Virus record (IMG/VR): IMGVR_UViG_3300044712_000960
Location: 1 to 51,880 of that record
Strand: one strand, 5' to 3'
DNA from: a virus
Length of the DNA stretch: 51,880 bases
Numbering within the stretch: position 1 is the stretch's first letter; every line of letters begins with the position of its first letter. The notes under the pieces were generated by a model that worked only from the letters and a program-made list of their open reading frames with translations, was not told the origin of the DNA and did no database searches. Position numbers and translations under genes: made by a program. Below, in pieces: positions 1,933 through 50,018 of the stretch.

Positions 1933-1966
1933 TTTATCCTGCTATTCCTTTCCATCCTTGTTAATT
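1933..1966. repeat. 'ATCC...CCATCCTTGTTAA' dispersed repeat, copy 1
   Basis: The sequence TATCCTG-TATTCC-TTCCATCCTTGTTAA closely matches 51386-51414. It overlaps the 3' end of the 1942-2274 gene and so may have altered its C-terminus. Confidence 0.55.
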
Positions 1967-2274: not shown

Positions 2275-2297
2275 GGCATCCTTCCCATTTACTATTT

Positions 2298-2377
2298 CCC
2301 TTGCCTTGCCTCGACCTGTTCTGCCTCGCCAGAGCTCACCGGACCTCGCCCAACCGGGGCTAACCGCGCCTCGCTCC
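2298..2377 (-). repeat. GG-pentamer repeat P2 in leader of 1942-2274 gene
   Basis: There are about sixteen 5-nt units, mostly GGNNN on the minus strand (for example GGCGA GGCAG, GGCAA GGCAA), ending some 23 bases before the ATG at 2274. Same family as P1 and P3-P5. Confidence 0.75.
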
Positions 2378-2389
2378 TTTCTCCGCCCC

Positions 2390-2427
2390 ATCCCCCTTTG
2401 ACAAAGGGGGACACAGGGGGATTTTAA
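2390..2427. repeat. PPFAKGG-type palindromic repeat, copy 2
   Basis: The sequence CCCCCTTTGACAAAGGGGG is followed by ACACAGGGGGATTTT. It lies immediately downstream of, and slightly into, the 2424-2630 gene end. Confidence 0.75.
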
Positions 2428-2630
2428 ACACCCTTTGTTCTCGCCGGGCATGTCCCCACGACACCCTTCAATCCGCCCGCCTTCTCCGCCCGATTCGGTT
2501 TCCGAATATTGAACTCCCGGTAAATGTTATGCCCGCAGTTCACGCACTTCACATTTATAACCCTGTGCGTATTCGGCACATGATCCGGCACCAATAACCC
2601 TCCGCATTTAGGACACTTCGGACGTTTCAT
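2424..2630 (-). CDS. Small zinc-ribbon protein
   Basis: The 68-residue product has CPKCGG near the N-terminus and CVNCGH 27 residues later, a classic zinc ribbon with a basic tail. This suggests nucleic-acid binding. ATG 2630 has GGAG seven bases upstream. The upstream gene (2608-2865) overlaps its start. The palindromic repeat at 2390-2427 touches its stop codon. Confidence 0.7.
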   Translation of the reverse strand: MKRPKCPKCGGLLVPDHVPNTHRVINVKCVNCGHNIYREFNIRKPNRAEKAGGLKGVVGTCPARTKGV

Positions 2631-6067: not shown

Positions 6068-6112
6068 TTGACTAAGTAATTGTAATCTCATTTATTGGGT
6101 GAATGATCACCC
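6068..6112 (+). promoter_or_regulatory. Promoter and operator of the second repressor
   Basis: A TTGACT box (6068-6073) and TTTATT (6091-6096) are 17 bp apart. Transcription would start at about 6103, the A of the ATG, giving a leaderless mRNA. The palindrome GGGTGA-ATGA-TCACCC (6097-6112) straddles the start codon and could be an autoregulatory operator. Confidence 0.6.
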
Positions 6113-6429
6113 AGAAAGACATAGGTGGCCGTCTCAAAATAATCAGGATGCGGCTCGGCCTCAAGCAATCCGAAATGGCAAAACTGCTGGGGCTCAAACA
6201 GGCGGCAAGTATCGCCGGTTATGAAAATGGCGACAACTGGCCATCAGCCGAAACCCTGATTAAAATTGCCGAAGCGGGTTCAGTTACCTATGATTGGCTC
6301 TTTTTAGGCTTTGATTCCTCGCAAAATCTATCCATAGAGGAAATGGAGTTGCTGGCTGATTTTAAACTACTGGACGTTGCCGCGCAAAAGATTATAACCG
6401 AGTTAATCACCCTGTTAGCAAAAAAATAG
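6103..6429 (+). CDS. XRE-family transcriptional regulator, 108 aa
   Basis: A helix-turn-helix occupies about residues 8-62 (MRLGLKQSEMAKLLGLKQAA, then YENGDNWPS, TLIKIAEAG and DWLFLG). A short C-terminal helix ends in LLAKK. There is no Shine-Dalgarno and the promoter spacing suggests a leaderless message. It heads a rightward group with two small envelope proteins and the serine integrase. It may regulate integrase expression or act as a second immunity repressor. Confidence 0.8.
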   Translation: MITQKDIGGRLKIIRMRLGLKQSEMAKLLGLKQAASIAGYENGDNWPSAETLIKIAEAGSVTYDWLFLGFDSSQNLSIEEMELLADFKLLDVAAQKIITELITLLAKK

Positions 6430-7131: not shown

Positions 7132-8601
7132 ATGAATGGAACAAGCTGTGCGATTTACATCCGCAAATCCCGCGAAGACAAGGACCGGGAGGCCCACCGC
7201 CTGGAAGTCCAGCGCCGCCAATTACCAGAATACGCCCTTTCCAGGGGCTGGAAGCCGGTAATTTATGATGACGGCTACGCCAGCGCCTCCAAGAACAACC
7301 TCCATAACCTCAAAGAACGCTCCCGTATGGAGACCGACATCCGCGCCGGCAGGATCCAGATCGTCCTTTGCCTGGAGTTCCAGCGCCTCTCCCGCGACGA
7401 CACCATGGAGGATTACGCCCGTTTCATCGGGCTCTGCCGTGACCACGGCGTCAAACTCGCCACCCCCTCTCAGATCATCGACCCCTGCCAGACAAACGAA
7501 TGGCTCCTGTCCGTCCTCACCGGCACACTATCCGCTGCCGAAATGCAGGTCTTGAAAACCCGCATGGCCGAGGGGAGGGACCAGGCCCGCCGCAAGGGGA
7601 AATTCCTGGGCGGGGTATGCCCGCCGCCATACATATACGACAAGTCCATGGAAAGGCCGGTCATAGATCCGGCCCGCCTGGAGGAGATGAAACGCCTTTG
7701 GAAAATGGCCGAAACCGAGTCCGCGGCTTCCATCGCTTTTGCCCTCTCCATGCCACTCATAGCCGTGAGACGGGCGATCTCCGACGAAAGACTCCTCTTC
7801 TATCAGGCTAAGCGTTACGACCCCGCCACGGGCGAATTATTGGATTGCGCATGGGACCCGGCCATGACTCCGGAACAGTCCGAACGGATCAGGGCCGCCC
7901 GGAAACTTAGGAGCAATCTCAAAAAAGGAAAGCGCGAAAGCGCCTCCCTTCTAACCAACCTTGCGCTCGTCTTCTGCGGCTACTGCGGCCGCAGTATCAA
8001 AGTCTGGAACAACTCTAGGCTAAGGGTTGACGGCTCCCGCCTCGATTACTACGGCTGCCAGGGGAAGGGGAGGGGAGGGCAATGTGAACGATCCCGGCTC
8101 ATACCTCAGCCGGTCATTGACCAGGCCATAAAGAAAAACATCCTCAATACCCTGGCCAGGCTGAAGGAGATAAAGAAACAGATCGACGGCCACGGCGCCG
8201 GCGACTCAAAAGAGGATATCCGGCTTCTGGATGCCGCCATCTCCCAGGAGGAAGGGAAAAAGCGCCGCCTCATAACAGCCATAACCGACGGGATCCTCAC
8301 TATGGCCGACGCCAAAGAGAAGGTGGCCGAGGTCAACTCCAGGATCGCCGACCTTAACCTCCAGAAAACCACCCTGGCCCGGGCCAAAACCGAAATCCAG
8401 TGGGACCTCCTAACCGAGGCCTCCCATGTGTTTTCTAGTTTAGACCATGGCGACCTGCGGAAATTCCTGCAGCTCTGCCTTAAACGCATCGATGTCTACC
8501 ACGGCCACATGATCCTGCATTACACCTTTCCACGCAAACCCGGCGATAATACGGCAAAAATCAATATCCCTCCATCCAACCAGGGCAAGCGGAAAATATG
8601 A
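7132..8601 (+). CDS. Large serine recombinase, phage integrase
   Basis: The 489-residue protein has the full large-serine-recombinase plan. An N-terminal resolvase domain has the probable nucleophile Ser13 in YIRKSRED and Arg residues in FQRLSRDD. A recombinase domain spans roughly 155-270. A zinc ribbon (CGYCG ... YYGCQGK ... QCER) lies near 280-325, followed by a C-terminal coiled coil. It should integrate the phage by attP x attB recombination. The ATG immediately follows the previous stop. The neighbouring tRNA-Asn-like fragment at 8673-8703 is a candidate attachment core, but serine integrases do not always use adjacent tRNA sequence. Confidence 0.9.
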   Translation: MNGTSCAIYIRKSREDKDREAHRLEVQRRQLPEYALSRGWKPVIYDDGYASASKNNLHNLKERSRMETDIRAGRIQIVLCLEFQRLSRDDTMEDYARFIGLCRDHGVKLATPSQIIDPCQTNEWLLSVLTGTLSAAEMQVLKTRMAEGRDQARRKGKFLGGVCPPPYIYDKSMERPVIDPARLEEMKRLWKMAETESAASIAFALSMPLIAVRRAISDERLLFYQAKRYDPATGELLDCAWDPAMTPEQSERIRAARKLRSNLKKGKRESASLLTNLALVFCGYCGRSIKVWNNSRLRVDGSRLDYYGCQGKGRGGQCERSRLIPQPVIDQAIKKNILNTLARLKEIKKQIDGHGAGDSKEDIRLLDAAISQEEGKKRRLITAITDGILTMADAKEKVAEVNSRIADLNLQKTTLARAKTEIQWDLLTEASHVFSSLDHGDLRKFLQLCLKRIDVYHGHMILHYTFPRKPGDNTAKINIPPSNQGKRKI

Positions 8602-24564: not shown

Positions 24565-24565
24565 A

Positions 24566-25774
24566 TCACGACTCCAAAAGGGGTTTTTCATTCCCCTTCA
24601 CTAAAAGCCCCATCTGCTTTAACTGCTCTTCCGTCGCCGTCCTCTCCCGGTCGAAGGCGTCAAAGTCAATATCGCCCGCCTGGTGGCGTTTGTAGAGGTC
24701 ACTCATATGCTGTGTTATTTTCCGCAACTCCCCGGCCCTCTCTTTCGGGATATATCCTGTCACCGAGAAGGGCTGGATCTTCTTATCCACGGTTTTCTGA
24801 TAGGTCCAGTTTACCGGGTGGGCGTTGCCGTTGTTTTTCAACTCCTCCCAGTTGGTGAGAAGCTCGGCGGTGTATGGGTCCTTCGTGGTCTGCATGAACT
24901 TGGCCATAAGTTCAGACCTGTTGAACTGGTTCTTTACCGGGTTCGCGGCTAAAGCCCTCTCTTTCTCCGCCTCGGAAAGGGATTTGGTTATCCCCGCCTT
25001 GGCGATGTCAGGAGCCAATCCCGTCTGCGTTTCGATCTGTTTTGCCTGAGCTGCGGACACCGGAGCTTCAATGGCCAGCCTGCCTCGGATATATTCCCCC
25101 TGGTTTTCCGCATGGGCAAACTGCGCGGCTTGTGCGGCCATGGCGGCATCCCACTTGTCCGGGTCATCATCATAACCGGCCGGCACATAACCCATCTTAC
25201 GGGCAATCGCTGCCCTGCGCGAACCAAGAGCACTCCCATCCTCCAGGAAGCTCCACTTGTCGCCGCCGATGGGGGGAACGCCCGCCGGTCCGCTCGGCAT
25301 GATCGTGGCGGAGCCGTTGCCGGGCATGACGTATCCACCGCGGCTCTTAAGCGGATCGTTTGCCCCGCCGATATCCTGGTAGTTGATCCTTTTGCCGTCA
25401 ACAACGGCAAAGCCGCTGCCTTTATCAGCAATACCGGGCGCTTCACGAAGCGCCCCTACATTTTGTGGCGGCTCAATCACCGGTATCTTGTCCGTCGCGT
25501 TGGTCAGCGGTTTACGGATCGTAGGGGGAGGCGTCTGTATGACATCAGGTGCCTTATTCGCTGTCTGCTGAGGGGCCGGAGCGGGGGCGATGGGCGGAGG
25601 CGGCATCTTCGGATTACTGAACCCGCCCAGGGGGTGTGCCTGCTGTTTCGGCAGCATATTGGCCGGGGCTATTCCCGAGTTCCAATTATAATTATTCGTC
25701 GGGATCGGGTTGTCAAAATTCACCGGAGCTCCGGTATTTGTCGGCCATCCTATTGGTTGCGCTGTCTTTGCCAT
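24566..25774 (-). CDS. Virion-associated protein with GYVPA motif and repeat insertion
   Basis: The 402-residue protein has a Pro/Ala/Asn-rich disordered N-terminal third that carries a VGALREAP palindrome (about residue 106). The motif DGSALGSRRAAIARKMGYVP lies at about 178-198, followed by a helical C-terminal half. The motif is shared with the secreted protein at 6799-7131. It lies directly upstream of the giant polyvalent gene, overlapping its preferred ribosome binding site. Probably a minor virion or ejection protein. Confidence 0.65.
   Translation of the reverse strand: MAKTAQPIGWPTNTGAPVNFDNPIPTNNYNWNSGIAPANMLPKQQAHPLGGFSNPKMPPPPIAPAPAPQQTANKAPDVIQTPPPTIRKPLTNATDKIPVIEPPQNVGALREAPGIADKGSGFAVVDGKRINYQDIGGANDPLKSRGGYVMPGNGSATIMPSGPAGVPPIGGDKWSFLEDGSALGSRRAAIARKMGYVPAGYDDDPDKWDAAMAAQAAQFAHAENQGEYIRGRLAIEAPVSAAQAKQIETQTGLAPDIAKAGITKSLSEAEKERALAANPVKNQFNRSELMAKFMQTTKDPYTAELLTNWEELKNNGNAHPVNWTYQKTVDKKIQPFSVTGYIPKERAGELRKITQHMSDLYKRHQAGDIDFDAFDRERTATEEQLKQMGLLVKGNEKPLLES
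25436..25459 (-). repeat. In-frame palindromic repeat (VGALREAP) in 24566-25774 gene
   Basis: The palindrome GGGCGCTTCACGAAGCGCCC plus CTAC, on the minus strand, is read in the VGALREAP frame as in the giant gene. Confidence 0.8.
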
Positions 25775-28886: not shown

Positions 28887-30677
28887 CTATGGACAAACGT
28901 ATTGTTGGGTCTTTACTCCGGTCCCGGCCCTGTGACCGGGCGGTGATAAATATTGTGCATGCCACTCCTGACAATCGTTATACCCGAATACCGCTCCCCA
29001 ACCAGCCAATATATCCCCAAACTCATGGTTGCCGTCTTCCGGCGGACCCTGGCAGCATGAGGCGCGGCCTTGGCCCCTGTTACATGCGTCAAAATAAATT
29101 TCGATCTCTGATCCATATTCGCAATTCTCGAACCCCAAATTATCGTCGCTAAACGGCCCCCATGTGGTTATCCAAACCCCATCAGGCAATCTGACTTGTT
29201 TTGTCGCTGTGCGCCCGCACTCGTCAGTTGCCGTTATGGTCCCGCCGCGCTCTCCGGGAGAACAGCCATTAATGCTGGTTATCTTGCCGGTTGTGTCGAT
29301 GGTCCCCTTATCGAACGACCATGATACTCCCCCGACCGGAGGGTCGCTATCGGTGATAGATGCGCAATAATACTGGCCGTTTACGGTCGCATCCGCAGCC
29401 CCGATTATCTGCAACTGAGCCAAAGTCTTGTTATAGGCAACCTGTACCGAATGGCCATAATTATCTTCTGCGGACACAGTAACGGGGGGACAGCAGCCAT
29501 TCATCGCCACAACCCTCGCCCCGTCGAAGGTAAGACAGTCACCCGAAAAGGTCACACCAGGACACATATTCCTGGCCTGATAGACGGCCCCGACATAGGG
29601 ATAGACCCCGATCAACTCAGGTTCGCCCGACCACTTCACCGGCAAATCCTCGTACTGTTGTTGTAGTGCGTCAATCGAATGGGAAGATGATTCGCTGGCG
29701 ACGATCTTGAGCGTGGCGTAAACCGGCTGATTGCCATTAAAATCCCTCCCTATAGGCCATTCGCCGCTTTTGGAGATGTTCCAGTCGCTACCGGAGATGG
29801 TCGTAAACAGGTTCCCGTAGCCGGAGCCGATAATGTCGAACCTGGCCGAGTAGCTGGAATCTTCTTCCTCTGTCACGACCAACATGGTCCCACCGTTTAC
29901 GGCCTGATCCCCCAGGCTGTTAAAATACCACGGCAGGCTCGGACGCTCACCGCGCCGGTAGCCTATCCGCACATCCCCGCGCCACACCTCATCATAAAAC
30001 CCGCCTGTTTCGCCATCAGGGTTCGTAATCCCGGCATAATCGAAACTGACGATGGCGATAAGCGCACCCTTATGGACGGCACAGCCGCAAACCTTCCCAC
30101 CTGCAAACTCTTTAAGAAGCTCCCCGGACTGGTAAATCAGCCCACGGAACGGCGTATAATGGGAAATCTCCAGGCCGTCCACCATCTCCATATAATCAAA
30201 CTCGGTGTAGCCCGATAAACTGAGCAGGGAATCCAGCGGGAAGACCCTGGAGAACGGCCCCCGGAACGTCAGCACATTATTATTAGGCCCGGCCCAATCC
30301 AGGTTGCCGTAATTCTCGACATCCGTTGTAACCTCCCATGCGGCAGCTTCCACACTTAAAACCCTGCTGCCATGGTCGTCATCTACGAGCGGATAGGTAT
30401 GAATGCCAGGGATATTGGCCCCGGCTGGCGTGGTGCCTCCTTGTCGGATAGTGTCGCGTGGATGGCAGATAAAGCCTACCTGCAAACCTTCAATCCTTAT
30501 CAGGTCCCCCGCATCCGACGAAACCACGTAAATAATGGCATTGTCTACCTGTGTAGGCCCCCATGCCAACGTCGATTTGTCGGTGACAAGTCTTCTCCTG
30601 GTCAGGTTTCCCAGAATTTTGTCGGCGTAGGGAAGGTACTCGTCGCCGCCGTTTATCTGTTTATTACAGAAGGTCAT
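28887..30677 (-). CDS. Tail fibre or receptor-binding protein with Ig-like repeat
   Basis: The 596-residue beta-rich protein contains a bacterial Ig-like (BIG2-type) segment in its C-terminal half (GVSWSFDKGTIDTTGKITSI ... GTITATDECG). Several Cys-rich turns (NGCCPP, NGCSPGE, QCER-like CNRGQG) are present. Such proteins decorate phage tails or bind host surfaces. Its start overlaps the 30674 gene end by ATGA. Confidence 0.6.
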   Translation of the reverse strand: MTFCNKQINGGDEYLPYADKILGNLTRRRLVTDKSTLAWGPTQVDNAIIYVVSSDAGDLIRIEGLQVGFICHPRDTIRQGGTTPAGANIPGIHTYPLVDDDHGSRVLSVEAAAWEVTTDVENYGNLDWAGPNNNVLTFRGPFSRVFPLDSLLSLSGYTEFDYMEMVDGLEISHYTPFRGLIYQSGELLKEFAGGKVCGCAVHKGALIAIVSFDYAGITNPDGETGGFYDEVWRGDVRIGYRRGERPSLPWYFNSLGDQAVNGGTMLVVTEEEDSSYSARFDIIGSGYGNLFTTISGSDWNISKSGEWPIGRDFNGNQPVYATLKIVASESSSHSIDALQQQYEDLPVKWSGEPELIGVYPYVGAVYQARNMCPGVTFSGDCLTFDGARVVAMNGCCPPVTVSAEDNYGHSVQVAYNKTLAQLQIIGAADATVNGQYYCASITDSDPPVGGVSWSFDKGTIDTTGKITSINGCSPGERGGTITATDECGRTATKQVRLPDGVWITTWGPFSDDNLGFENCEYGSEIEIYFDACNRGQGRASCCQGPPEDGNHEFGDILAGWGAVFGYNDCQEWHAQYLSPPGHRAGTGVKTQQYVCP

Positions 30678-40197: not shown

Positions 40198-42249
40198 TTA
40201 CATCATTGGATTCGGTCTTACGCCGTCGTTTTCGGGTGTCTCAATCCCTGCGTCAACGCCCTCTGCCGGGCTCCTCGGCACCGCCGGAAATGCCGGGCTG
40301 GTATTGCGCCTGACATCCGGTACTAGGTTCGCGTTTTGAACCGTCGGCCCCTCAACGATGGGCGGCTTATTGGCGTCCTCGAACCCGCCGGATAAAAGCA
40401 GCTGATCCGCCAGGGGAGCGACCGGAGCGGCCCCGGCCAGCACCTGGGCTGCCTGCACTCCCGAATAGATCGCCGTGATGTTTTTGGCGACCGCTGCTGC
40501 CTTCCGGTCCAAAGCCGTCGCCTCGTCCAGCAGGATCTTCGCTTCCGCCGCCCGTTGCTGGAGCGCAATCTGCGCCTGGGCCTGCGGGTCTTCCCCCTGT
40601 TCTCCGCCACCCTTGAGCCGGTCCAGAAAACGCTTCTTGTTGCGCAGTGACGACGCCTCCACCAGCATCTCGAAAGCCAGGGGTTTCATGTTTTCCGGGA
40701 TCGCCGGGAAAATGTTCGTCAGCGCCTCGAACTGCTCCTGCATGGCGTTCACCACGTCCGGCACCTCAACCATGGTGAAATCAACATCGATCTCCGCGAT
40801 GTTGTTTCTGACGCCCACCTGTACATTCAGGCGCGGATCATCGGGGTTGACACCCTCGGGGATTTGCCCGCCGTTCTCCTTGGCCATCTGCTCTCCCAGC
40901 GTCATCGGGACATTCAGACCCACCCACCTCGGGCTCTCGCCATCGCCCGTGACCCTTACCCACCTTTCCGCCGTCCAGAACTGCCGGATCCGGTTCCACA
41001 CCGCCCGGCACACCTGGTTGTCGAACTGCGCTATCGCCTCGAATAGGGGCTTCAGTTCCGTGCTCGACCCCTGCTGCAACTTTCCGATGGCCTTGCCCGA
41101 CAGGTCCCGGGATTCCATCCCCGAAAGCGCCGCATGCACGCCCACCGAATCGATCTCCGCCTTCGCCTCCTGGAGAAGTTGGAACTGTGCGTTCGCCTGG
41201 TCCATCGTCGGCAGCACGCCGAACTCCTTGCCGTACTCGCCGTTCTGGAATTGGAGATGGCCGTCCGGCTTCGCCAGTTCATCCTTCAGTTTCAGAACGT
41301 CCTCGCTTGCACCTTTTGAACTGTAGGTCTGGCGCACGGAAACCAGGTGCAGGTGCTTGCTGGCCCGCTTATTGATCTCATCCTGGGTGTCCAGCCATGC
41401 TTTCACATAGCCGTAGCGGTTCCCCTCGCGGTCCACATGGGCGCTCTGCAGGATGATCGACCATTCCGGCACCCCCATGTCATCCACATAGGGCGATGGC
41501 TCCGGCTCAGACAGGAAGCCACCCCGCGTGAACTCACAGACATGAACCTCCCCACCCTGAAGGGTTTCCATCTTGACGATTCTGATCCTCTTGCGCTTCG
41601 CATCCGCCCACCGTATACGCGGCGCGTCGTCATAGGTGGAGGAAAGAGCGTTCTCCTTCGTCATGGTCGATAAAAGCGCCTCTGCGCCGTCAGCGTAGCG
41701 CTCCTTTGCCTGGTCGTAATCCATCCACGCCACCGCATAGCGGTAAAGCGTATCGGAAAAATCCTTTTCCCTGCTATGGGGGTCCCATCCCAGACGATCC
41801 CAGTGAAAGCGCCTGATACAGATATCGATCTCCTCCCCGCGCCCCGGCTTGCAGTAAACCTCAACGCCCCCGGCCCCCTCTATCAGCAGCTCCTCGAAAA
41901 CATCGCTCTTGATCTTCGGGAACTTGGTCCGGTCGTAAACGAATCGCACCGCGTCCGTCGCCGTCTCTGCCGCATGCTCATCGCCCGGGGTCCTTGGCGC
42001 AGCCTCCGGGTCAGTCCTGGTCTGGACCTCGATCCCCTTCAGAAAATCCACCTTCGGTTTGATCCGGTTGCGGGTAATCACCGGCTGGCGCTTTTTGCGC
42101 AGGGCCGCCGCCTCCCGCTCAGTCCACTGCTTGTGGTCATAGTAATCCCGGCACTTCTCGGATATATCGCGGGAATCCCGAGACAGGTCTTCCGCCTCGT
42201 CGAAATAGGCTATTGCTTGAGTGAGGGTAAGTTTTGCGGTATTTTGCAT
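40198..42249 (-). CDS. Portal protein, P22-like
   Basis: The 683-residue product has the sequence style of large podovirus portals: a DYYDHKQWTEREAAALRKKR-type early helix and an NRIKPKVDFLKGIEVQTRTD segment. A central wing/stem follows, then a Gln/Ala-rich C-terminal barrel-like helix. It forms the DNA channel at one capsid vertex. It lies downstream of the terminase pair. Confidence 0.85.
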   Translation of the reverse strand: MQNTAKLTLTQAIAYFDEAEDLSRDSRDISEKCRDYYDHKQWTEREAAALRKKRQPVITRNRIKPKVDFLKGIEVQTRTDPEAAPRTPGDEHAAETATDAVRFVYDRTKFPKIKSDVFEELLIEGAGGVEVYCKPGRGEEIDICIRRFHWDRLGWDPHSREKDFSDTLYRYAVAWMDYDQAKERYADGAEALLSTMTKENALSSTYDDAPRIRWADAKRKRIRIVKMETLQGGEVHVCEFTRGGFLSEPEPSPYVDDMGVPEWSIILQSAHVDREGNRYGYVKAWLDTQDEINKRASKHLHLVSVRQTYSSKGASEDVLKLKDELAKPDGHLQFQNGEYGKEFGVLPTMDQANAQFQLLQEAKAEIDSVGVHAALSGMESRDLSGKAIGKLQQGSSTELKPLFEAIAQFDNQVCRAVWNRIRQFWTAERWVRVTGDGESPRWVGLNVPMTLGEQMAKENGGQIPEGVNPDDPRLNVQVGVRNNIAEIDVDFTMVEVPDVVNAMQEQFEALTNIFPAIPENMKPLAFEMLVEASSLRNKKRFLDRLKGGGEQGEDPQAQAQIALQQRAAEAKILLDEATALDRKAAAVAKNITAIYSGVQAAQVLAGAAPVAPLADQLLLSGGFEDANKPPIVEGPTVQNANLVPDVRRNTSPAFPAVPRSPAEGVDAGIETPENDGVRPNPMM

Positions 42250-42370: not shown

Positions 42371-43765
42371 TTACGCCGTCTTCCAATCGTCATCGCCAAA
42401 ATCATCCGACACGGAATAATATTCAACGGCCTTCTTCTTCACTGGTGCAGGCGCAATCCATGGCCTCGACATGCAGGCGTAGCGTATTTCATCCACCGCA
42501 TGGTCCTCGCCATCCGTATCGATATCCTCGATATTGTGCTTGTCGTGCTGCTGGAGCGGCAGAGTGCGGATGGAATCCACACAGGTGTTGAAAAAATAGA
42601 TCATCGGCCTGCCGTCAACGCCTATGAGACGGCTGTTCAACTGCTGCCAGCCCGGTTTGCGCTTGTTATCAGCCGGTCTCCATACAAGCGGCATCATTGC
42701 TGACGCGATGGACGGCCCACCGTCCTCCTGGAAAATCGCCGGGTCCGACACTCCGTAGGCTATTTTCTCCCCGGCTTCCCGCTTCCTGATCCCCGCGCCC
42801 ACCGCCTCGGCCGCCATCTTGATCCCCGTGTTGGGGTTTTTGTCACTCTCCTTACCGTACCATTCCCGGTAACGGATGATCGCGCCCCTGGGGAACTGCG
42901 GTAGATCGCCGTCCGAAACCGCCCACCAGCCCACCGAAAACGGCCGGGCCGATCCCCAGTCGAACGAACGAAAACGGGTCCACCGCTCAGGGAGCTCCAC
43001 CGGCTGAACCACATGAAGCCTGCCATTCCATGCCGAGAAAAACGCGCCGGCCACGATATCCCAATCCCCGTACAGCCACGCCCGGCGCAGAACGTCATTG
43101 CCCGAGGTAGCCGCCAGGATGCGACTGCGGTACGTCGGGTCTTTTGCGAGGAGAATCTGGTTATCGGAAAGTTTCGAGGGGATAAACATGCGGGTAAATC
43201 CGGTATCCGGGTCTTTGAACGGCGTGAATGGCGGCACCGGATCGATATAGCGGGTCTTCACCCACCCATGGCCGACGCCGCCGGGGTTGCCGGTGGAGCG
43301 CACCGAGCACGGAACGCCGTATGCTGATCTTAGACACGAAAACATTTTTAGGAGCCCGTCCGGTGTTGCATACTCTGTAACCTCGTCAAAACTGATATGG
43401 GAATACTGGTGACCATGATACCTGCCGTAATCGTTCTCATGCTCGATATACCTCATCTTCACCGTTGCGCCGTTGCGCCAGTACCAGCAGTTGGAGTAGG
43501 GAAAATCCTTTGAGGCGTTTGTTTTGTAGATTGCTCCTGACGCCGGAAAAATCTCCGTCGCCCTCATCTGCAACTCTTCCAGTTCGGTGTAGGTCTTGCG
43601 GAACATGATCCCGGCTGATTTGCCTTCGTACCTGAGAGCCGCGTCCTCCTGGTATCCGAGCTGCAAATCCGATTTACCGCCGCCACGCTCGCCGCCGTAA
43701 AACAACTCCTCGCACCAGTCAGCCTCAATCGCGGCCAGTTGCGGTCCCGGCTGCGGAATCCACAC
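42371..43765 (-). CDS. Terminase large subunit
   Basis: The 464-residue packaging motor has a Walker A (GGERGGGKS, residues 24-32) and a Walker B (HISFDEVTEY, near 130). A C-terminal RNase H-type nuclease has Asp residues in FDWGSARPFS and GVSDPAIF. It pumps and cuts DNA with the small subunit. GTG 43765 overlaps the small subunit by 41 bp. Confidence 0.92.
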   Translation of the reverse strand: MWIPQPGPQLAAIEADWCEELFYGGERGGGKSDLQLGYQEDAALRYEGKSAGIMFRKTYTELEELQMRATEIFPASGAIYKTNASKDFPYSNCWYWRNGATVKMRYIEHENDYGRYHGHQYSHISFDEVTEYATPDGLLKMFSCLRSAYGVPCSVRSTGNPGGVGHGWVKTRYIDPVPPFTPFKDPDTGFTRMFIPSKLSDNQILLAKDPTYRSRILAATSGNDVLRRAWLYGDWDIVAGAFFSAWNGRLHVVQPVELPERWTRFRSFDWGSARPFSVGWWAVSDGDLPQFPRGAIIRYREWYGKESDKNPNTGIKMAAEAVGAGIRKREAGEKIAYGVSDPAIFQEDGGPSIASAMMPLVWRPADNKRKPGWQQLNSRLIGVDGRPMIYFFNTCVDSIRTLPLQQHDKHNIEDIDTDGEDHAVDEIRYACMSRPWIAPAPVKKKAVEYYSVSDDFGDDDWKTA

Positions 43766-44387
43766 CGTTACTCACCTCATGGCCACCGATCCCATGGATA
43801 GCCAGCCATTCTTCCCTGGAGAGTTGAGGTCTGGCCGACGTCTCAACCGCCACCGGCCCCCCATCCTTCCCGGTTAATGCCAGATTATCCTTGTGCATCC
43901 CGCCGATCTTTGCCAGTTCAACCGCCGATTGATGCCTTGTCGGAATCTTCAGGAGCGTCCTGACCCCATCTTTCGAGGATACCTGTTCAAACTCCAGTAT
44001 TGACGCCTCTTCTTCGGTCCATTCCTCTAGGGGCTTACATCTGCCGTCACTCAGGAGTTTACGCCGGTCGATGGACATTACCGATTCGTGGTAACCAAGG
44101 ACCCTCGCTTCCAGCCTGCGTTTCCACTCCGCCTGAATCTCCCGAACACGTTGACGCACGTCAACATTAGTCAACAGCCGCGACGCCGCTTTTCTGGCTG
44201 ATATTTCAGACACTTGCGGGTATGCAACGAGATAGGCCTGTGTTGCGTTACAGCAGCCACGCAACACGAACTCCTGGCAAAACCTCTCCTGTTGAGGCTT
44301 CAGAACGATGGTCTCATATCCCATCTCCTCCGCCATCCCTGGAAGAACATCTTGACCAGGCATCATATTTCTCGCTGCATCACCCAC
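43725..44387 (-). CDS. Terminase small subunit
   Basis: The 220-residue product has a helix-turn-helix region (QQERFCQEFVLRGCCNATQA, then PQVSEISARKAASRLL; about residues 28-80) typical of small terminase (Terminase_2-like). An oligomerisation helix follows. GTG 44387 is chosen because AGGGG lies eight bases upstream. ATG 44366 is an alternative. It lies just downstream of the terminator module at 44405-44482, so late transcription must start here or read through. Confidence 0.75.
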   Translation of the reverse strand: MGDAARNMMPGQDVLPGMAEEMGYETIVLKPQQERFCQEFVLRGCCNATQAYLVAYPQVSEISARKAASRLLTNVDVRQRVREIQAEWKRRLEARVLGYHESVMSIDRRKLLSDGRCKPLEEWTEEEASILEFEQVSSKDGVRTLLKIPTRHQSAVELAKIGGMHKDNLALTGKDGGPVAVETSARPQLSREEWLAIHGIGGHEVSNGVDSAAGTATGRD

Positions 44388-44404
44388 GATATTAACCCCT
44401 GAAA

Positions 44405-44482
44405 CGAAAAAACCCCGCGCCAATAGCCGGTGATGGTTAATCACTCGACTTTCGACGCGGGGTTCAATTACCCTCGAGAGGG
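44405..44482 (-). terminator. Hairpin-terminator module, copy B
   Basis: On the minus strand a perfect CCCTC-TC-GAGGG hairpin (44471-44482) and a GTAATTGAA linker precede a 9-bp stem CGCGGGGTT/AACCCCGCG closing a nested GTGAT/ATCAC hairpin. A six-T tract follows. Same design as 11440-11503. It ends the early operon just before the terminase genes. Confidence 0.75.
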
Positions 44483-44853: not shown

Positions 44854-45498
44854 TCATCCGACCCCCGAATTTACCGGAGGGAAAGGCAAAACCGTAGAGG
44901 GTTCGCGGGTTTTGACTAGCCCCTGTTTTTCATCTTCCCCACGATTTTCAAGGTTTTGACGTTTATCCACAAGCCTCTTTTGCGCCTCCATCAAGGATTT
45001 ATCGGGTGTTTCGGTCGAGTTATCAACTTTTCCACAGGCATCTACTAGCTTTTCTTCTCTAAAGCAAGACGTAGTATCTACATCCTCCGTACTAACTACA
45101 TTCCCTTCCTTTAGACTCCCTTCCGGGGGTGAGCCGTCGCCGATGCCTCGTCGAATGCTCGCCGAATACTCGTCGAATTTTGGATGTTTGAATGAGGGCT
45201 TCTCAACCTTTTGATGTTTACTCCATCCCGTAACATGCCAATATTTCTTGCCTTCCGCTGAATATTCGGCAACAAGTCCCTGGCATATCAACTCCTCCAT
45301 CCATCCGGAAATTTCCTCGACTGTAAACAGGTCGCCTGGAAAAATTTCCATCTTCAGTGTCCGAGGGTTCGCCGAATGGTTGCCGCCGTCGTCACAGAAA
45401 TTCCATAATCCGACGAACAGTAGCCGAGCGGTCGGCGAGCATTCGACGATTTGTACAGAGGTCCAAAACTCCGGCTTGATCGTGCGTATTCGTGACAT
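44854..45498 (-). CDS. Phage replication initiator / replisome organiser-like
   Basis: The 214-residue product begins MSRIRTIKPEFWTSVQIVEC with a winged-helix N-terminal domain (about 1-110, including ATGLW-like LLFVGLWNFCDDGGN). This is characteristic of phage replisome organiser proteins. A disordered tail follows. No helicase, loader or polymerase gene is visible, so the phage must recruit host enzymes. It is in the early operon after intI. Confidence 0.7.
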   Translation of the reverse strand: MSRIRTIKPEFWTSVQIVECSPTARLLFVGLWNFCDDGGNHSANPRTLKMEIFPGDLFTVEEISGWMEELICQGLVAEYSAEGKKYWHVTGWSKHQKVEKPSFKHPKFDEYSASIRRGIGDGSPPEGSLKEGNVVSTEDVDTTSCFREEKLVDACGKVDNSTETPDKSLMEAQKRLVDKRQNLENRGEDEKQGLVKTREPSTVLPFPPVNSGVG

Positions 45499-45707: not shown

Positions 45708-45854
45708 TCAATATGTCACACACGCGGTCAAAAACGCCGCGGCCAGCCAATACCCGATATGCCGCCAATCAGTCCAGTCATGATAGGCGTACCCGGCCGC
45801 AGCTAGGATATCCATGGCAATCAACAATGTAGGAAACAGTTTGGTCGATAGCAT
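45708..45854 (-). CDS. Small two-TM protein coupled to the integron integrase
   Basis: The 48-residue product begins MLSTKLFPTLLIAMDILAAA and ends GYWLAAAFLTACVTY, two hydrophobic helices with a Trp/His-rich loop. Its ATG overlaps the intI stop (TGATG at 45856-45852), so translation is probably coupled. The role of a membrane protein next to an integron integrase is unknown. Confidence 0.6.
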   Translation of the reverse strand: MLSTKLFPTLLIAMDILAAAGYAYHDWTDWRHIGYWLAAAFLTACVTY

Positions 45855-46855
45855 CAGGCCGCCTTTTTCAGAGTATCCAATGGACTGGGCACATCGGATT
45901 GCTGTCTTATGCAGTGGAGATAGATCATGGTGGTTTTCGGACTGCTATGGCCGAGCAAACGCTGCAGGCGGATGATGGCGACCTCCTGGGCGCTTCCGGC
46001 GCTCTCCAGCCAGTGAGTGGCGAAAGAGTGCCTGAACGTATGGCATCCCGCCTTCTTGGTGATCCCGGCGGCGCGGATAGCCCGGCCGATGCGTTTCTGC
46101 ACCGCAGTATCGTGGATATGGTACAGTTTCCCAACCCACCGTGGATCCACATAATGGGTATCCCGCTGCCTGACCGGCTCTCCTGCCGGAAAAACCCAGA
46201 ACCAGCCCCATTCATAGGGCGCGGCAGGATATTTTCTGTCCAGCCTGTCGGGCATGGAAACCGGCGTCCGTTGCCGGGCATAGCGATCATATTCGGGACG
46301 CAGGCGACGCAGATGTTTTGAAAGCGGTTCAACCAGGCTGTCAGGAAGGGGAACTATCCTATCCTTGTTTCCCTTTGCCTGGCGGACCGATACCTGCCGC
46401 CTGTCCAGATCGATATCCTTCACCCGCAAGGCGCACACCTCGCCGAGTCGCAGTCCGCAACCATACATAAGCGCACCCCACAACCATCCGAGGCCATCGA
46501 GCTGATCGAGCACGGCTTGGGCCTCTTCGCGGAAAAAGACAGCGGGAATGTAGTGATATTTCGTGGCGCGGGTAAACTCGGATATGTCGCCCAGATCAAT
46601 ATGGAGAGCACGCTTATAGAGGTAAACAACGGCACATAACGCCTGTTTCTGTGTGCTTGCGGAGACGTGCTCTTTCGCGGCCAAGCGGGTAAGAAATGCA
46701 ATGACATTATCTTCCCGAGAGCGCCCCGCCGGCTGGACATGGAGGAATGCAATGAAATTTGAAGCCCAGGCAAGATAAACTTTGATGGTTTTGCGGCTTT
46801 TGTACTGCAACATCATGGATTCTTTCATCATCCTCAGAGCTTCATTAGCAAGCAT
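45854..46855 (-). CDS. intI: Integron integrase (IntI-type tyrosine recombinase)
   Basis: The 333-residue recombinase has the catalytic set R136, K161/K164, H272-x2-R275, H303 and Y312 (GLRLGE, KGNKDR, CHTFRHSFAT, LLGHSS...IY). The family-specific IntI insert is clear at about 201-223 (MPDRLDRKYP, EWGWFWVFPA), and the C-terminus SPLDTL also matches. These features separate it from XerC/D and ordinary phage integrases. It should recombine attI with folded single-stranded attC sites. A ~10-residue insertion before LLGHSS is unusual. AAAGGAGG precedes the ATG. It lies directly beside an attI-like region and five cassettes. Confidence 0.93.
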   Translation of the reverse strand: MLANEALRMMKESMMLQYKSRKTIKVYLAWASNFIAFLHVQPAGRSREDNVIAFLTRLAAKEHVSASTQKQALCAVVYLYKRALHIDLGDISEFTRATKYHYIPAVFFREEAQAVLDQLDGLGWLWGALMYGCGLRLGEVCALRVKDIDLDRRQVSVRQAKGNKDRIVPLPDSLVEPLSKHLRRLRPEYDRYARQRTPVSMPDRLDRKYPAAPYEWGWFWVFPAGEPVRQRDTHYVDPRWVGKLYHIHDTAVQKRIGRAIRAAGITKKAGCHTFRHSFATHWLESAGSAQEVAIIRLQRLLGHSSPKTTMIYLHCIRQQSDVPSPLDTLKKAA

Positions 46856-46911
46856 AGCAATCCTCCTTTCAGGTTATACAGCCATTGTGGCTTTCTAAGA
46901 TATGTTATAAG
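46856..46911 (+). other. attI: attI-like recombination site
   Basis: The 49 bp between the intI start and the first cassette contain two core-like sites in the same orientation, GTTATAC (46873) and GTTATAA (46904), 31 bp apart. The second is the crossover site of cassette 1. No attC-type palindrome lies on this side. The region also holds the intI ribosome binding site and probably its promoter. No LexA box is evident. Confidence 0.65.
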
Positions 46912-47453
46912 ACCTTCCGTTCAACAGTGCAGATGGTGTCATTGTGACAAGCCCCGTGACAGACGAGTAAGATTTCCTCGATTTCGTAGCCGCGTTTCTT
47001 GCCGATCCCGTTGGAGTCCCAGCCAAAGGAGAGCACGACGCCGCCTGTTTTTTGTAACCGGCTGATTGCCTCCTTTTCTTCGCTCCAGTTCTTTGTCCGT
47101 TGCCAGACGTTCCCCTTGCGCTGTCTCACAGCGTCCAGCGTTTTCGGGTCGATACCAGCTGCGGCGTAACAGTCCGCTGCCTGCCGGGGACTGTACGGCG
47201 GGTCAAACAGAACCAAGTCCGCCACAATGCCCCGCTCTTCCATGTGCCGGAGAAATTCGTAAGCGTCCATCGTGTAGTCAGCGGAACAGGCCGGGTTCAT
47301 GTCGTTCCGGTATGTGGCATAAGTGGTATCCCGTGCAAACGGGTCCAGGGACACGCCGCCGACCGCGGAAAGATACCGCTCCACAAGTTCTTTGATCGGC
47401 TTCACACTGAATGTCTGAGGGCTTGGCATCGCCCAGGCTCGTTGCAGTTTCAT
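46905..47453 (-). CDS. N6-adenine/N4-cytosine DNA methyltransferase (cassette 1)
   Basis: The 182-residue product has the catalytic DPPY motif (residues 84-87, LVLFDPPYSPR) and an early LDPFARDTTYATYRNDMNP segment of the S-adenosylmethionine fold. It is compact, without a separate target-recognition dom­ain. It probably methylates phage or host DNA, for example to resist restriction. The ATG at 47453 follows AAGGAC. The stop TAA is the complement of the cassette's first bases. Confidence 0.8.
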   Translation of the reverse strand: MKLQRAWAMPSPQTFSVKPIKELVERYLSAVGGVSLDPFARDTTYATYRNDMNPACSADYTMDAYEFLRHMEERGIVADLVLFDPPYSPRQAADCYAAAGIDPKTLDAVRQRKGNVWQRTKNWSEEKEAISRLQKTGGVVLSFGWDSNGIGKKRGYEIEEILLVCHGACHNDTICTVERKVL

Positions 47454-47546
47454 TTTGTCCTTGTGCCTAGCCAACGGCGGTACGGTCTTATAACCATCGG
47501 GTGCTATGGGATGGCGATAAAGCCGCCACCCCAGACCCTATGGCCG
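46905..47546 (+). mobile_element. Integron cassette 1 (DNA methyltransferase)
   Basis: It starts TTATAAGACC and ends in attC1. GTTATAAGACC (46904-46914) is the exact reverse complement of 47484-47494. The gene runs opposite to cassette polarity and its TAA lies in the core site. Confidence 0.88.
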
Positions 47547-47552
47547 TTGTAC
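47484..47552 (+). other. attC: attC1
   Basis: R'' GGTCTTATAAC lies at 47484-47494 and R' GTTGTAC at 47546-47552. Between them a hairpin pairs TGGGATGGCG with CGCCACCCCA and GGGT[G]CT with AGACCC. One extrahelical G is the ninth base after AAC, the position of the extra base in the well-known aadA attC. Confidence 0.85.
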
Positions 47553-47800
47553 TACTCTTGCTCCTTCACTGGCATATGGTCGTAGCAGGTATTCCGATAT
47601 CCTGCCAGTGTCGGAGTCCCGCATGATGCCGTTCTTTCACATCCAAGTTCGTCGCACGCCTGCCAGATGGAGGTTTCAATGGTTGTGCATTTTGGACAAA
47701 CTCCGACAGTCTCATCCTGCTGGAATGGATGGTTGAAATAGCGAAGTTCGGTAGAATCACCGACCCACCCGCAGCGCCTTTCTTGGCAACAGACTTTCAT
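47552..47800 (-). CDS. Cys-rich cassette protein (cassette 2)
   Basis: The 82-residue product has at least eight Cys, including CCQERRCGW, CPKC and CDELGCERTASCG, suggesting one or two zinc sites. Its ATG overlaps the stop of the upstream 47797-47961 gene (ATGA). Function unknown. Its TAG lies inside the core site. Confidence 0.65.
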   Translation of the reverse strand: MKVCCQERRCGWVGDSTELRYFNHPFQQDETVGVCPKCTTIETSIWQACDELGCERTASCGTPTLAGYRNTCYDHMPVKEQE

Positions 47801-47961
47801 TCGGCGGCCTCCCCGTCAAGAACAACCTCACCGCAGAAAGTATAGGCGTTGCACTCACGATACTTGTTAATTTCGACCTCATCAGGAACAGAGCAAAACC
47901 CCTTTGGCCTGTCTCCGTCATGAATCGAATTGTGACTGCATGAATAATATTGGCATTTCAT
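47797..47961 (-). CDS. Cys-rich cassette protein (cassette 2)
   Basis: The 54-residue product begins MKCQYYSCSHNSIHDGDRPK and has further Cys (FCSV, ECNAYTFCG), like small metal-binding domains seen in bacterial cassette and phage proteins. AAAGGGGGG precedes ATG 47961, which lies 26 bp from the R'' box. Confidence 0.65.
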   Translation of the reverse strand: MKCQYYSCSHNSIHDGDRPKGFCSVPDEVEINKYRECNAYTFCGEVVLDGEAAE

Positions 47962-47976
47962 AGCAACCCCCCTTTC

Positions 47977-48038
47977 GTAGTACAACCATCGGCAGCACCA
48001 GACCATAAAGCCGTCTGGTGTGCCTCAACTCGTTATAA
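47977..48038 (+). other. attC: attC2
   Basis: R'' GTAGTACAAC, R' GTTATAA (48032). The hairpin GGCA[G]CACCAGAC / GTCTGGTGTGCC has a single extrahelical G nine bases after AAC and a 9-nt loop. It is the cleanest attC-like site of the five. Confidence 0.9.
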
Positions 48039-48067
48039 AGACCAAGATTAGAAAAAAAGGAGAACAA

Positions 48068-48373
48068 ATGGACATCTACAAAATGAGAAAAATTGTTGCC
48101 GCATTAAACAGAAAAAATGTATCTCAGCCTTGTCCACGTTGTGCCTCTAAGAATTTCAGTGTAGTTGGTGAATCAGAGATTTCCATAGTACGTCCACCAT
48201 TACCACCTGCAATTGATGCACCGATTACTATTTCTTCAATAGCCCCAATAAAAACAACTATGCCTACTGTAGTAGTTTCCTGCGATAACTGCGGCTATAT
48301 TGCTCAACATGCTCAAGCTGCCTTAGATTTACTTGCACCACTTCCGAGCATAAAAGGGATTGGTGAATTATGA
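48068..48373 (+). CDS. Zinc-ribbon protein (cassette 3)
   Basis: The 101-residue product has CPRC (SQPCPRCASKNFSVV) and CDNCGY pairs separated by a Pro-rich stretch, a typical zinc ribbon. It is followed by a short helix. AAGGAG lies seven bases before ATG 48068, 35 bp inside the cassette. It overlaps the next gene (ATGA), so the two form one unit. Paired genes of this kind occur in bacterial mobile DNA. Function unknown. Confidence 0.75.
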   Translation: MDIYKMRKIVAALNRKNVSQPCPRCASKNFSVVGESEISIVRPPLPPAIDAPITISSIAPIKTTMPTVVVSCDNCGYIAQHAQAALDLLAPLPSIKGIGEL

Positions 48374-48648
48374 GCGACAATCTCAAATACAATGAAGACC
48401 CAAAACATACTGATTATCTTTTACGTTCTGAAAAGCAGAAGTTAGACGCCGGATTTTTGGGTAAAATATTTGGCGCAGAACAGAGTGCCGCTTCAAGCAT
48501 CTCATGGGTTATGATTTTTCTATTAACCTGTTCAGGAATCATTGTCTTGTTCTTCCCCTGCACTATTGGAACTGCGGAGTATTGGAAAATAATAACACCC
48601 ATCATGACTCTCGCGCTTGGGTATCTTTTTGGCCGGAGGAATAAATAA
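48370..48648 (+). CDS. Two-TM membrane protein (cassette 3)
   Basis: The 92-residue product has a hydrophilic N-terminus and two membrane helices (about residues 44-62 and 70-86) ending GRRNK. It is translated with the zinc-ribbon protein. The pair may act together at the membrane, possibly in defence, but this is conjecture. Behind it about 150 bp are non-coding up to attC3. Confidence 0.7.
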   Translation: MSDNLKYNEDPKHTDYLLRSEKQKLDAGFLGKIFGAEQSAASSISWVMIFLLTCSGIIVLFFPCTIGTAEYWKIITPIMTLALGYLFGRRNK

Positions 48649-48797
48649 ACCCGGACAATAGTGAAAGGTGCTTTTTGCTACCCATAGAAAAGGGGAATAA
48701 AGAATTTCAACAAATCTTCCCAAGAAACCGATTTGTTGCCCACACCGCTGACAACACCAAGAGGGATTTTTTTTCTTCTGCAAAAACATAATAAATC

Positions 48798-48871
48798 CTT
48801 TATAACCACGTCCTTGGACGCCGACCGCCCGAAAAGACTGGGCGGGCGGGTCAAGGCCGTAGCCGTTATGA
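48798..48871 (+). other. attC: attC3
   Basis: R'' CTTTATAAC, R' GTTATGA (48865). The stem CCTTG[G]AC...CCGCCC pairs with GGGCGG...GTCAAGG with an extra G on the left arm. Confidence 0.85.
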
Positions 48872-49570
48872 TGCTAATTGTTGCCGCATCTCAGATAGCA
48901 ACTGCCGGCCCATCCACTCCGTATATGCTGGCGGGATGGCTTGGCAGAGTTCGGCAAGGGTCATCCAGTCAATCCCCATTGCCTCCCGGCCCTGTTCCAC
49001 GTTGAAATCGGCAACGCCCTTGTCAATTTTCCTTACGCTATCGCGCACCCCTTCGCCATAAATTCCGTTTGTGCGCTTCCGGTTCCGTAAATGCCCGCCG
49101 TACACGCCTATTGCAGCGGATCTCCGGCCGTGCTGGCATTCCGGCGCAAGCATCGGGAAGCTGCATTCAAAAAGTCTGTGCCTCCGCAACTCGGCATCTT
49201 CGCAACCCAGGTCAAACATTGTCCCGCAAAGCAAAACCGGGAATCTCAGCGGGGCGCCGACAACATTTTCCATTATCCACGGCTTACCAGATTTCCGCAG
49301 AAGTCGGCGCGTCTCTGGTATCAGGTCCGGGTGCGCTTTCGCGTTGTGCATGGTTTTCATGGCCGTGTGCGCCTGACATGGCGGGCTCGCGTGGATCGCG
49401 TCGTATTCGTGGCCGTGCATCTCCAGATATTCCAGGGCGTCCGCACAAATGAACTCGAACGGGTAGCGCGGCTGGAATTTGTTGTCAACTCCGGTCACTT
49501 CAAACCCCGCCCGATGGTAGCCCATGCCGGCCCCACCCGCGCAGCAAAATAAGTCAAGCAATTTCAGCAT
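48866..49570 (-). CDS. C5-cytosine DNA methyltransferase (cassette 4)
   Basis: The 234-residue enzyme shows motif I (DLFCCAGGAGMGYHRAGF, 6-23), the catalytic ASPPCQ with Cys65, ENV (101-103) and the RRHRLFE motif (129-135). It is shorter than most host enzymes, with a reduced target-recognition region, as in many phage enzymes. It would methylate cytosine to evade restriction or regulate DNA. No partner nuclease is in the cassette. The TAA lies in the core site. Confidence 0.9.
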   Translation of the reverse strand: MLKLLDLFCCAGGAGMGYHRAGFEVTGVDNKFQPRYPFEFICADALEYLEMHGHEYDAIHASPPCQAHTAMKTMHNAKAHPDLIPETRRLLRKSGKPWIMENVVGAPLRFPVLLCGTMFDLGCEDAELRRHRLFECSFPMLAPECQHGRRSAAIGVYGGHLRNRKRTNGIYGEGVRDSVRKIDKGVADFNVEQGREAMGIDWMTLAELCQAIPPAYTEWMGRQLLSEMRQQLAS

Positions 49571-49640
49571 TTAAACCTCGTACGCATCATAACAACCCGC
49601 AGCAGCAGGCCGAAAAGGCCCGGCTGCTGTGCTAAACCCG
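48866..49640 (+). mobile_element. Integron cassette 4 (C5-cytosine methyltransferase)
   Basis: It starts TTATGATGC. GTTATGATGC (48865) is the exact reverse complement of GCATCATAAC (49584-49593). The gene is inverted relative to cassette polarity. Confidence 0.9.
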
Positions 49641-49646
49641 TTAAAC
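49584..49646 (+). other. attC: attC4
   Basis: R'' GCATCATAAC, R' GTTAAAC (49640), which fits the GTTRRRY consensus exactly. The stem pairs GCA[G]CAGCAG and GGCC with GGCC and CTGCTGTGC around GAAAA. The extra G is nine bases after AAC. Confidence 0.9.
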
Positions 49647-49949
49647 CGACTCTGGTCGCATTCTCTCAATCCGGTCAATTTCAGCAGCTATCAACGCGCC
49701 AGCCTTGGCAAGGTTGCGGATAGGATCGTCTCCTGCCTTGACCTTAAACCAATCGTCGTCACCGAAATAAGCCCCGACTTCTCCCACTACAGAAGATTCA
49801 AGCCGCGCAAACGTGTACGTGGAAAGGGCGAAGGCGGCTCCCATCAGCGCAAGCTCCCCACTTGTGTGGCTATCATCATGTTTCGGGGTCCAACCTTCTT
49901 TTTCTATCTGCCGTTGCCGCTCAGCTGATATCAACTCTATTCCCGTCAT
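49641..49949 (-). CDS. ERQRQIE-family phage protein (cassette 5)
   Basis: The 102-residue product begins MTGIELISAERQRQIEKEGW, continues HDDSHTSGEL and ends AGALIAAEIDRIERM. It is homologous to the early phage protein at 1942-2274. AAAGGAG precedes ATG 49949, just inside the R'' box. The family is common in phages; function not established. A phage-type gene packaged as an integron cassette is unusual. Confidence 0.8.
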   Translation of the reverse strand: MTGIELISAERQRQIEKEGWTPKHDDSHTSGELALMGAAFALSTYTFARLESSVVGEVGAYFGDDDWFKVKAGDDPIRNLAKAGALIAAEIDRIERMRPESV

Positions 49950-50012
49950 AAATTCTCCTTTCGCTGGTTTAACCACGCTGCTGGTGCCGTCAAGCGGCAC
50001 AGCGCAGGGCCG
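49641..50012 (+). mobile_element. Integron cassette 5 (ERQRQIE-family gene)
   Basis: It starts TTAAACC. GTTAAACC (49640) is the reverse complement of GGTTTAAC (49966-49973). It ends in attC5 at 50012, the last cassette. Confidence 0.88.
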
Positions 50013-50018
50013 TTATCC
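49966..50018 (+). other. attC: attC5 (last site of the array)
   Basis: R'' GGTTTAAC, R' GTTATCC (50012). The stem pairs GCTG[G]TGCCG with CGGCACAGC. The extra G is again on the left arm. No matching CGGATAAC was found further right, so this closes the array. Confidence 0.85.

Follow-up and report, generated by a model that had tools for sequence, protein, structure and literature searches.

Phage-borne integrons have been described once in the open-access literature that was searched, in a survey of 10,705 phage genomes (Qi et al. 2023, PMC9892861). The survey lists three complete integrons, one In0 and 17 clusters of attC sites lacking an integron integrase (CALINs), and reports experiments in E. 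coli in which attI1 recombined with attC sites from virulent phages. The present analysis concerns an integron in the virus record IMGVR_UViG_3300044712_000960, which consists of an integrase gene (intI), an attachment site (attI) and five gene cassettes, each ending in an attC site. The record is 51,880 bases long and was analyzed in its entirety; this whole stretch is referred to as the window. A first-pass annotation of the window had recognized a complete integron in a temperate phage but stated that no phage with intI, attI and a cassette array was well described, which is wrong in view of the three complete phage integrons in the survey. Comparison with related sequences indicates that the integron is very probably a standing module of the phage and not a captured bacterial integron.

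The integrase and its relatives

The product of intI scored above the curated cut-off of the NCBIfam model TIGR02249 (265 bits; Table 1) and the XerC and XerD models were far under theirs. The closest solved structure was the Vibrio integron integrase VchIntIA (2a3v, E 4.6e-52). In a phylogenetic tree the window IntI was found among IntI proteins, apart from XerC/D, in accordance with the first-pass assignment. It belongs to a clade of 27 rows (SH-aLRT 99) whose members are viral contigs and prophages only, and the catalytic residues R136, K161, H272, R275, H303 and Y312 are invariant across this clade. The same tree contained several further viral-only IntI groups, with the chromosomal integrases placed apart; it was a quick tree and its deep branches are unsure.

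The relatives were collected in two scans. When viral contigs were scanned with the window IntI, 13 relatives with 54-93% identity were obtained, and of the additional IntI-like viral contigs that an alignment-based scan yielded, about 50 were usable. The nearest IntI loci in bacterial genomes were eight in number (57-82% identity), in Geobacter and other 'Deltaproteobacteria' metagenome-assembled genomes (MAGs), and all eight were prophages. Six have terminase, portal or replication genes in common with the viral contigs, while the other two are Mu-like: both have a terminase large subunit (TerL) of phrog_38 and a portal of phrog_10963, and one also has a MuA-like transposase. Among 48 genome loci, none was found to be a chromosomal integron outside a prophage that combined this IntI (>60% identity) with the same attI and with inverted cassettes. 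Of 141 genomes of the presumed host order, several hold a different IntI that is about 40% identical.

The genomic position of intI also recurs. In the window, the minus-strand gene order is intI, replication initiator, terminase small subunit (TerS), TerL and P22-like portal. Among the relatives intI lies mostly upstream of terminase or replication genes. Of 26 further viral contigs with a recognized TerL, 24 have intI and TerL on the same strand, and in 20 TerL is downstream of intI and at most 8.2 kb away. The clade spans several packaging types, since TerL families phrog_2, phrog_15 and phrog_38 all occur.

Two side observations were made on these genomes. Distant IntI genes (346-419 bits) are present on contigs (L152, L153 and L154) of MAGs that also hold a prophage with the phage-type IntI, so both kinds of integron may come together in one cell. 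In one Mu-like prophage (L032) the region just upstream of the integron array (7388-8584) encodes a reverse transcriptase (phrog_1423, E 2e-113), and therefore one phage may carry a retroelement, possibly a diversity-generating one, together with an integron.

attI and attC sites

The block that constitutes attI, upstream of intI, is common to 20 phages of the clade and ends exactly at the G/TT crossover. When these phages were aligned, the mean column identity was 0.60 over the last 25 bases and 1.00 at both T, and it fell to background from the fifth base past the crossover. The first cassette at attI differs in most phages of the clade.

Each cassette begins with bases complementary to a box at its own far end. 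The five box pairs identified in the first pass were all found at the correct coordinates, with 11, 10, 9, 10 and 8 matching bases. Every inter-cassette segment (5/5) forms a single attC-like hairpin on the bottom strand, the outer stem of which closes once the first bases of the cassette itself, the R' box, are supplied. The sites have the R''/L''/L'/R' layout, fold as single-strand hairpins and carry extrahelical bases on the L'' side. This asymmetry was seen at a ratio of 44:12 in phages and 15:4 in chromosomal controls.

The attC finder employed relaxed spacers and RNA energies and was validated on the window; DNA energies with tight limits missed all sites. Across 54 phage or prophage IntI loci the same finder detected 67 units, compared with 0.75 per dinucleotide shuffle. 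Long chains that appeared where the output was noisy did not enter the evidence. RNAalifold gave no consensus structure for a MAFFT alignment of attC sites, and a first covariance model (R1) was for this reason sequence-only and was not used. A second model (R2) was trained on other phages, with 18 attC sites, the window and its four nearest relatives being left out. Its structure was set by hand and the covariation, 0.317 as against 0.118 for shuffled alignments and at most 0.159 for slid partners, was checked before use. The top five hits of this held-out model in the window were exactly the five attC sites, all on the plus strand, and the sixth scored 11.7 bits, which upholds the first-pass reading of the hairpins as attC. 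R2 also recovered the attC sites of the Shewanella M16-3 integron and of the class 1 integron on phage P1, and in the phage loci 53 of 53 R2 hits were on the strand opposite intI. Rfam gave no match within the window. In a separate locus, from Pseudomaricurvus alcaniphilus (L061), near-identical attC-like units recur about 450 bp apart, with 39 overlapping matches.

Orientation of the cassette genes

The open reading frames (ORFs) of integron cassettes usually run with attC, away from intI, an arrangement that is not part of the mechanistic definition of an integron. In class 1 integrons they are driven by the promoter Pc. The window departs from the usual orientation. All of its cassettes except cassette 3 (thus 1, 2, 4 and 5) have minus-strand ORFs that run against attC, and the family matches of cassettes 1, 4 and 5 fall on that strand. 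This inversion was unremarked in the first-pass annotation.

The inversion extends to the other phages. In an earlier count per locus, with a hairpin-asymmetry filter, the antisense to sense ratio was 25:0 in phages and 0:7 in chromosomal integrons. The filter could favor one answer and the count was repeated in two ways. Unfiltered, 45 phage units had an ORF antisense to attC and one had a sense ORF, whereas the chromosomal integrons gave none antisense, eight sense and 12 ambiguous. When attC was defined by R2, the ratio was 41:5 in phages compared with 0:16 in bacterial, class 1 and Shewanella arrays (Fisher p 7e-11, a value that counts units, although units inside one locus are not independent). 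Furthermore, a Shine-Dalgarno-like sequence was found ahead of 40 of 63 antisense ORFs but only three of 47 sense ORFs.

The opposite orientation of the attC sites was considered and rejected, on the grounds of the attI end at G/TT, the hairpin asymmetry, the single strand of the R2 hits and a cassette found in two phages (L002 and L003). The block common to these phages extends over the hairpin on its right, which assigns that hairpin to the ORF on the left; the attC sites therefore point away from intI, as in known integrons.

Cassettes in common between phages

L002 and L003, whose IntI proteins are about two thirds identical, have a block of approximately 690 bp in common at 85% identity. 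Both of its ends are at GTT, and the DNA on each side is unrelated. Similarly, the cassette that comes first in L091 reappears at 96% identity as an inner cassette of L122. The first 90 bp or so of window cassette 2 are 72% identical to a cassette of L003, and the match begins at the same GCC GTT. The box pairs and the recurring cassettes thus display an ORF joined to an attC, complementarity of a cassette to its own box and G/TT boundaries, as in mobile cassettes. These comparisons point to cassette exchange among phages. The first-pass suggestion of a direct route for cassette spread between cells goes beyond the data, the cassettes being inverted relative to bacterial ones.

The phage and the cassette cargo

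The direct terminal repeat of the record is 127 bp and the record is therefore a closed or terminally redundant unit. Packaging genes, a lysogeny integrase and a repressor-like regulator are all present; the serine recombinase and the CI-like regulator point to a temperate phage in which lysogeny would be independent of IntI. Together with the IntI family score, attI and the five attC sites, these genes support the first-pass description of a complete integron in a temperate phage. One quarter of the phage genome is occupied by a gene for a 4,342-residue polyvalent protein (11563-24591, minus strand) with RadC, LPD1 and MuF_C domains and a weak ADP-ribosyltransferase domain.

Most of the 63 cassette ORFs examined across the phages had no recognized function. 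Methyltransferases were the commonest recognized cargo, with five C5-cytosine and four N6/N4 DNA methylases. Mom, a PAPS-reductase domain, an Acb2/Tad1 domain, YopX and ASCH were matched once each, and two ParB-like PHROG families were also matched. A putative counter-defense role is the natural reading of such cargo. The phrog_6628-group phage domain occurs twice in the window, in cassette 5 (49641-49949, minus strand) and in a gene outside the array (1942-2451, minus strand).

Table 1. Features of the integron and of the phage that carries it. The strand of a cassette is the orientation of its attC. CM, covariance model; E, E-value.
Feature	Position	Strand	Evidence
intI, integron integrase, 333 aa	45854..46855	-	TIGR02249 301.4 bits
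attI, CAGGTTATACAGCCATTGTGGCTTTCTAAGATATG/TT, crossover 46904/46905, 49 nt upstream of intI start codon	46870..46906	+	conserved block
Cassette 1	46905..47546	+	own-box pair 46904/47484, 11/11
Cassette 1 ORF, DNA methyltransferase, antisense to attC	46905..47474	-	phrog_11619 E 6e-42
attC 1	47488..47552	+	CM R2 23.9 bits, E 0.006
Cassette 2	47547..48032	+	box pair 47546/47977, 10
Cassette 2 ORF, 82 aa, no assigned function, antisense to attC	47552..47800	-	
attC 2	47980..48038	+	CM R2 47.9 bits, E 2.6e-8
Cassette 3, orientation exception	48033..48865	+	box pair 48032/48798, 9
Cassette 3 ORF a, sense, AAAGGAG ahead	48069..48373	+	weak Lar_restr_allev/phrog_4293: phrog_4293 E 2.8e-4; PF14354 E 0.007, below cut-off
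Cassette 3 ORF b, sense, no assigned function	48370..48648	+	
attC 3, weak alone	48800..48871	+	CM R2 17.5 bits, E 0.15
Cassette 4	48866..49640	+	box pair 48865/49584, 10
Cassette 4 ORF, C5-cytosine DNA methyltransferase-like, antisense to attC	48866..49570	-	phrog_363 E 1.3e-42; PF00145 E 1.5e-4, just under cut-off
attC 4	49587..49646	+	CM R2 41.5 bits, E 7e-7
Cassette 5, last	49641..50012	+	box pair 49640/49966, 8
Cassette 5 ORF, 102 aa, phage domain of unknown function, antisense to attC, AGGAG ahead	49641..49949	-	phrog_6628 E 1.4e-20 on longer 119-aa frame
attC 5, array end	49967..50018	+	CM R2 26.2 bits, E 0.002
Replication initiation protein, first gene past intI	44854..45498	-	phrog_1408 E 8e-37
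Terminase small subunit (TerS)	43725..44444	-	PF03592 E 9e-15
Terminase large subunit (TerL)	42371..43765	-	phrog_979 E 7e-27, phrog_2 E 5e-25
P22-like portal protein	40198..42249	-	PF16510 E 1e-101
Serine recombinase, likely lysogeny integrase	7132..8601	+	phrog_95 E 3e-52; PF00239 E 1e-19
CI-like transcriptional regulator	6103..6429	+	phrog_8 E 1.3e-16

Origin of the integron

The phage-limited IntI clade, the placing of intI close to packaging or replication genes and on the same strand as the terminase, and the inverted cassettes are what set apart the proposed phage-resident lineage, and all three are found here. The rival that survives best, although it is itself unlikely, is a real but decaying or inactive integron, with inherited cassettes that no longer move. 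In its favor, the activity of IntI is predicted from sequence, and the differences in first cassette are between phages that are themselves far apart. However, decay is difficult to reconcile with intact catalytic residues, with an attI kept in 20 phages next to sequence at background level, or with cassettes of the same boundaries that are 85-96% identical in different phages.

It is slightly less probable that a fragment of a sedentary chromosomal integron of the host was taken up by imprecise prophage excision or was included by mis-drawn prophage borders. In the published integron of Vibrio phage Va_90-11-286_p16 (MK672802; L151), intI is flanked by host infC, rpmI, rplT and thrS, so this record likely includes host chromosome. 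Moreover, the presumed host order does contain integrases of another kind, as noted above. A captured fragment would nevertheless not be expected to have an IntI confined to viral contigs and prophages, a terminase or replication neighborhood that recurs in many contigs, or cassette ORFs inverted relative to chromosomal ones, and the annotated genes that flank the window integron include no host genes and are phage genes on the intI side.

A third explanation, considered improbable, is that IntI is the lysogeny integrase and inserts the phage via host attC or attI sites, the array being a by-product. Qi et al. (PMC9892861) report excision of prophage p16 at attC sites, and intI is indeed part of the window phage genome. 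This role was rejected for IntI because the window has a serine integrase; related phages also encode, besides IntI, a tyrosine integrase of their own (phrog_1) or a MuA-like transposase, and cassettes, not host DNA, are present at the attI junctions. An assembly chimera of a phage and an integron-bearing contig, a risk raised in the first pass for what is a single metagenomic record, is scarcely credible because the intI/terminase neighborhood is also present in MAG prophages and in many independent contigs of different metagenomic origin, with IntI on the TerL strand in nearly all of these contigs, and because the record has its terminal repeat.

Several observations weigh against a standing phage module. 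The attC calls come from a purpose-made finder and model and not from IntegronFinder, and some related phages, L008 and L031 among them, had no clear attC past attI, possibly for reasons of sensitivity or of cut contigs. The two plus-strand ORFs of window cassette 3 show that the inversion is not absolute. The ORF orientation was ambiguous in 21 of the 67 phage units, and the chromosomal control is small, with eight clear units, or 16 including class 1 and Shewanella. Most of the IntI relatives are uncultivated contigs. No convincing promoter could be placed directly upstream of the array, and both recombination and expression of the array are inferred from sequence comparison.

Proposed mechanism and implications

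If the integron is a resident module of the phage, the bottom strands of attC would fold when single-stranded during infection or induction. IntI, as expected from its family, would insert circular cassettes at the G/TT crossover of attI and would also excise cassettes, so that the phage could gain and reorder genes beside intI. Since the ORFs are inverted relative to attC, the cargo is in the same direction as the intI, replication and terminase genes. It would be expressed by leftward phage transcription through the array towards intI and not by a Pc reading away from intI. Promoter-like sites in a scan of the array, in which a Pc near intI or attI was looked for, were not above shuffles. 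A strong promoter-like site is present on the minus strand at 5188-5161, close to the regulator genes; that it is linked with the array, across the circle, is conjecture. The methyltransferases and other probable counter-defense genes would alter which host restriction or defense systems the phage escapes, while lysogeny would be left to the serine integrase.

With more reserve, we favor the broader proposal that phages own a separate class of integron for swapping counter-defense genes, with a largely private cassette pool made expression-incompatible with bacterial integrons by the inverted ORFs, and that this condition arose independently in several IntI lineages. The independent origins are suggested by the appearance of the inversion in viral clades that are not joined by the tree. 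Given the inversion, phage transcription would read the wrong strand of a bacterial cassette inserted at a phage attI, with the converse for a phage cassette in a bacterial integron, and a barrier between the phage and bacterial cassette pools is therefore predicted. Phages would then be owners and not merely occasional carriers of integrons, which gives a testable account of how they could reshuffle anti-restriction and anti-defense genes one cassette at a time. If this is true, the phage integron would be a counterpart of the bacterial one, which stores anti-phage defense genes. The combination of inversion and a neighboring terminase provides a signature for annotation. The way in which inverted cassettes are born is a question that bears on the open problem of cassette genesis.

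Comparison with known systems

Phage integrons as such are already known. In the open-access literature, subscription papers and preprints being outside the search, no description was found of a lineage that is owned by phages, occupies a recurrent site and carries inverted cassettes. The integrons and CALINs of Qi et al. (PMC9892861) resemble the window in having intI, attI and attC in phages and methyltransferase cassettes. However, the complete examples are captured ones, namely an integron from a Vibrio chromosome together with host genes, a class 1 integron on P1 and a cryptic Shewanella prophage with the canonical orientation, and the virulent-phage arrays, unlike the window, are without intI. 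The parts of the paper that were consulted report no phage-specific IntI lineage, conserved site beside packaging genes or inversion rule.

Among individual phages, the virus Rctr41k (KX853513) has an IntI-family gene on a phage contig (TIGR02249 383 bits) with methyltransferase genes nearby, like the window. Unlike the window, its IntI is 40% identical and on a long branch, it is not annotated as an integron and R2 detected no attC at E 0.05. In the lytic isolate Polaribacter phage P12002L (L172), where intI was not found, R2 places an attC at 30005-30059 on the plus strand, adjoining methyltransferase genes on the minus strand. This attC is opposite to its neighboring genes, the same inversion as in the window; by R2 the attC sites of TJE1 are in the sense direction.

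Sedentary chromosomal integrons, such as those of Vibrio, Photobacterium and Shewanella, have the intI-attI-attC layout of the window and small cassettes mostly of unknown function, but differ in IntI clade, in canonical ORF orientation and in chromosomal location. The class 1 integron, with IntI1, attI1 and resistance cassettes, has a recombinase of the same family (about 39-40% identity), attC sites that are recognized by R2 and an array that adjoins attI and diverges from intI, as in the window. Its cassette ORFs, for which the strand was checked, run with attC and away from intI, whereas those of the window run towards intI.

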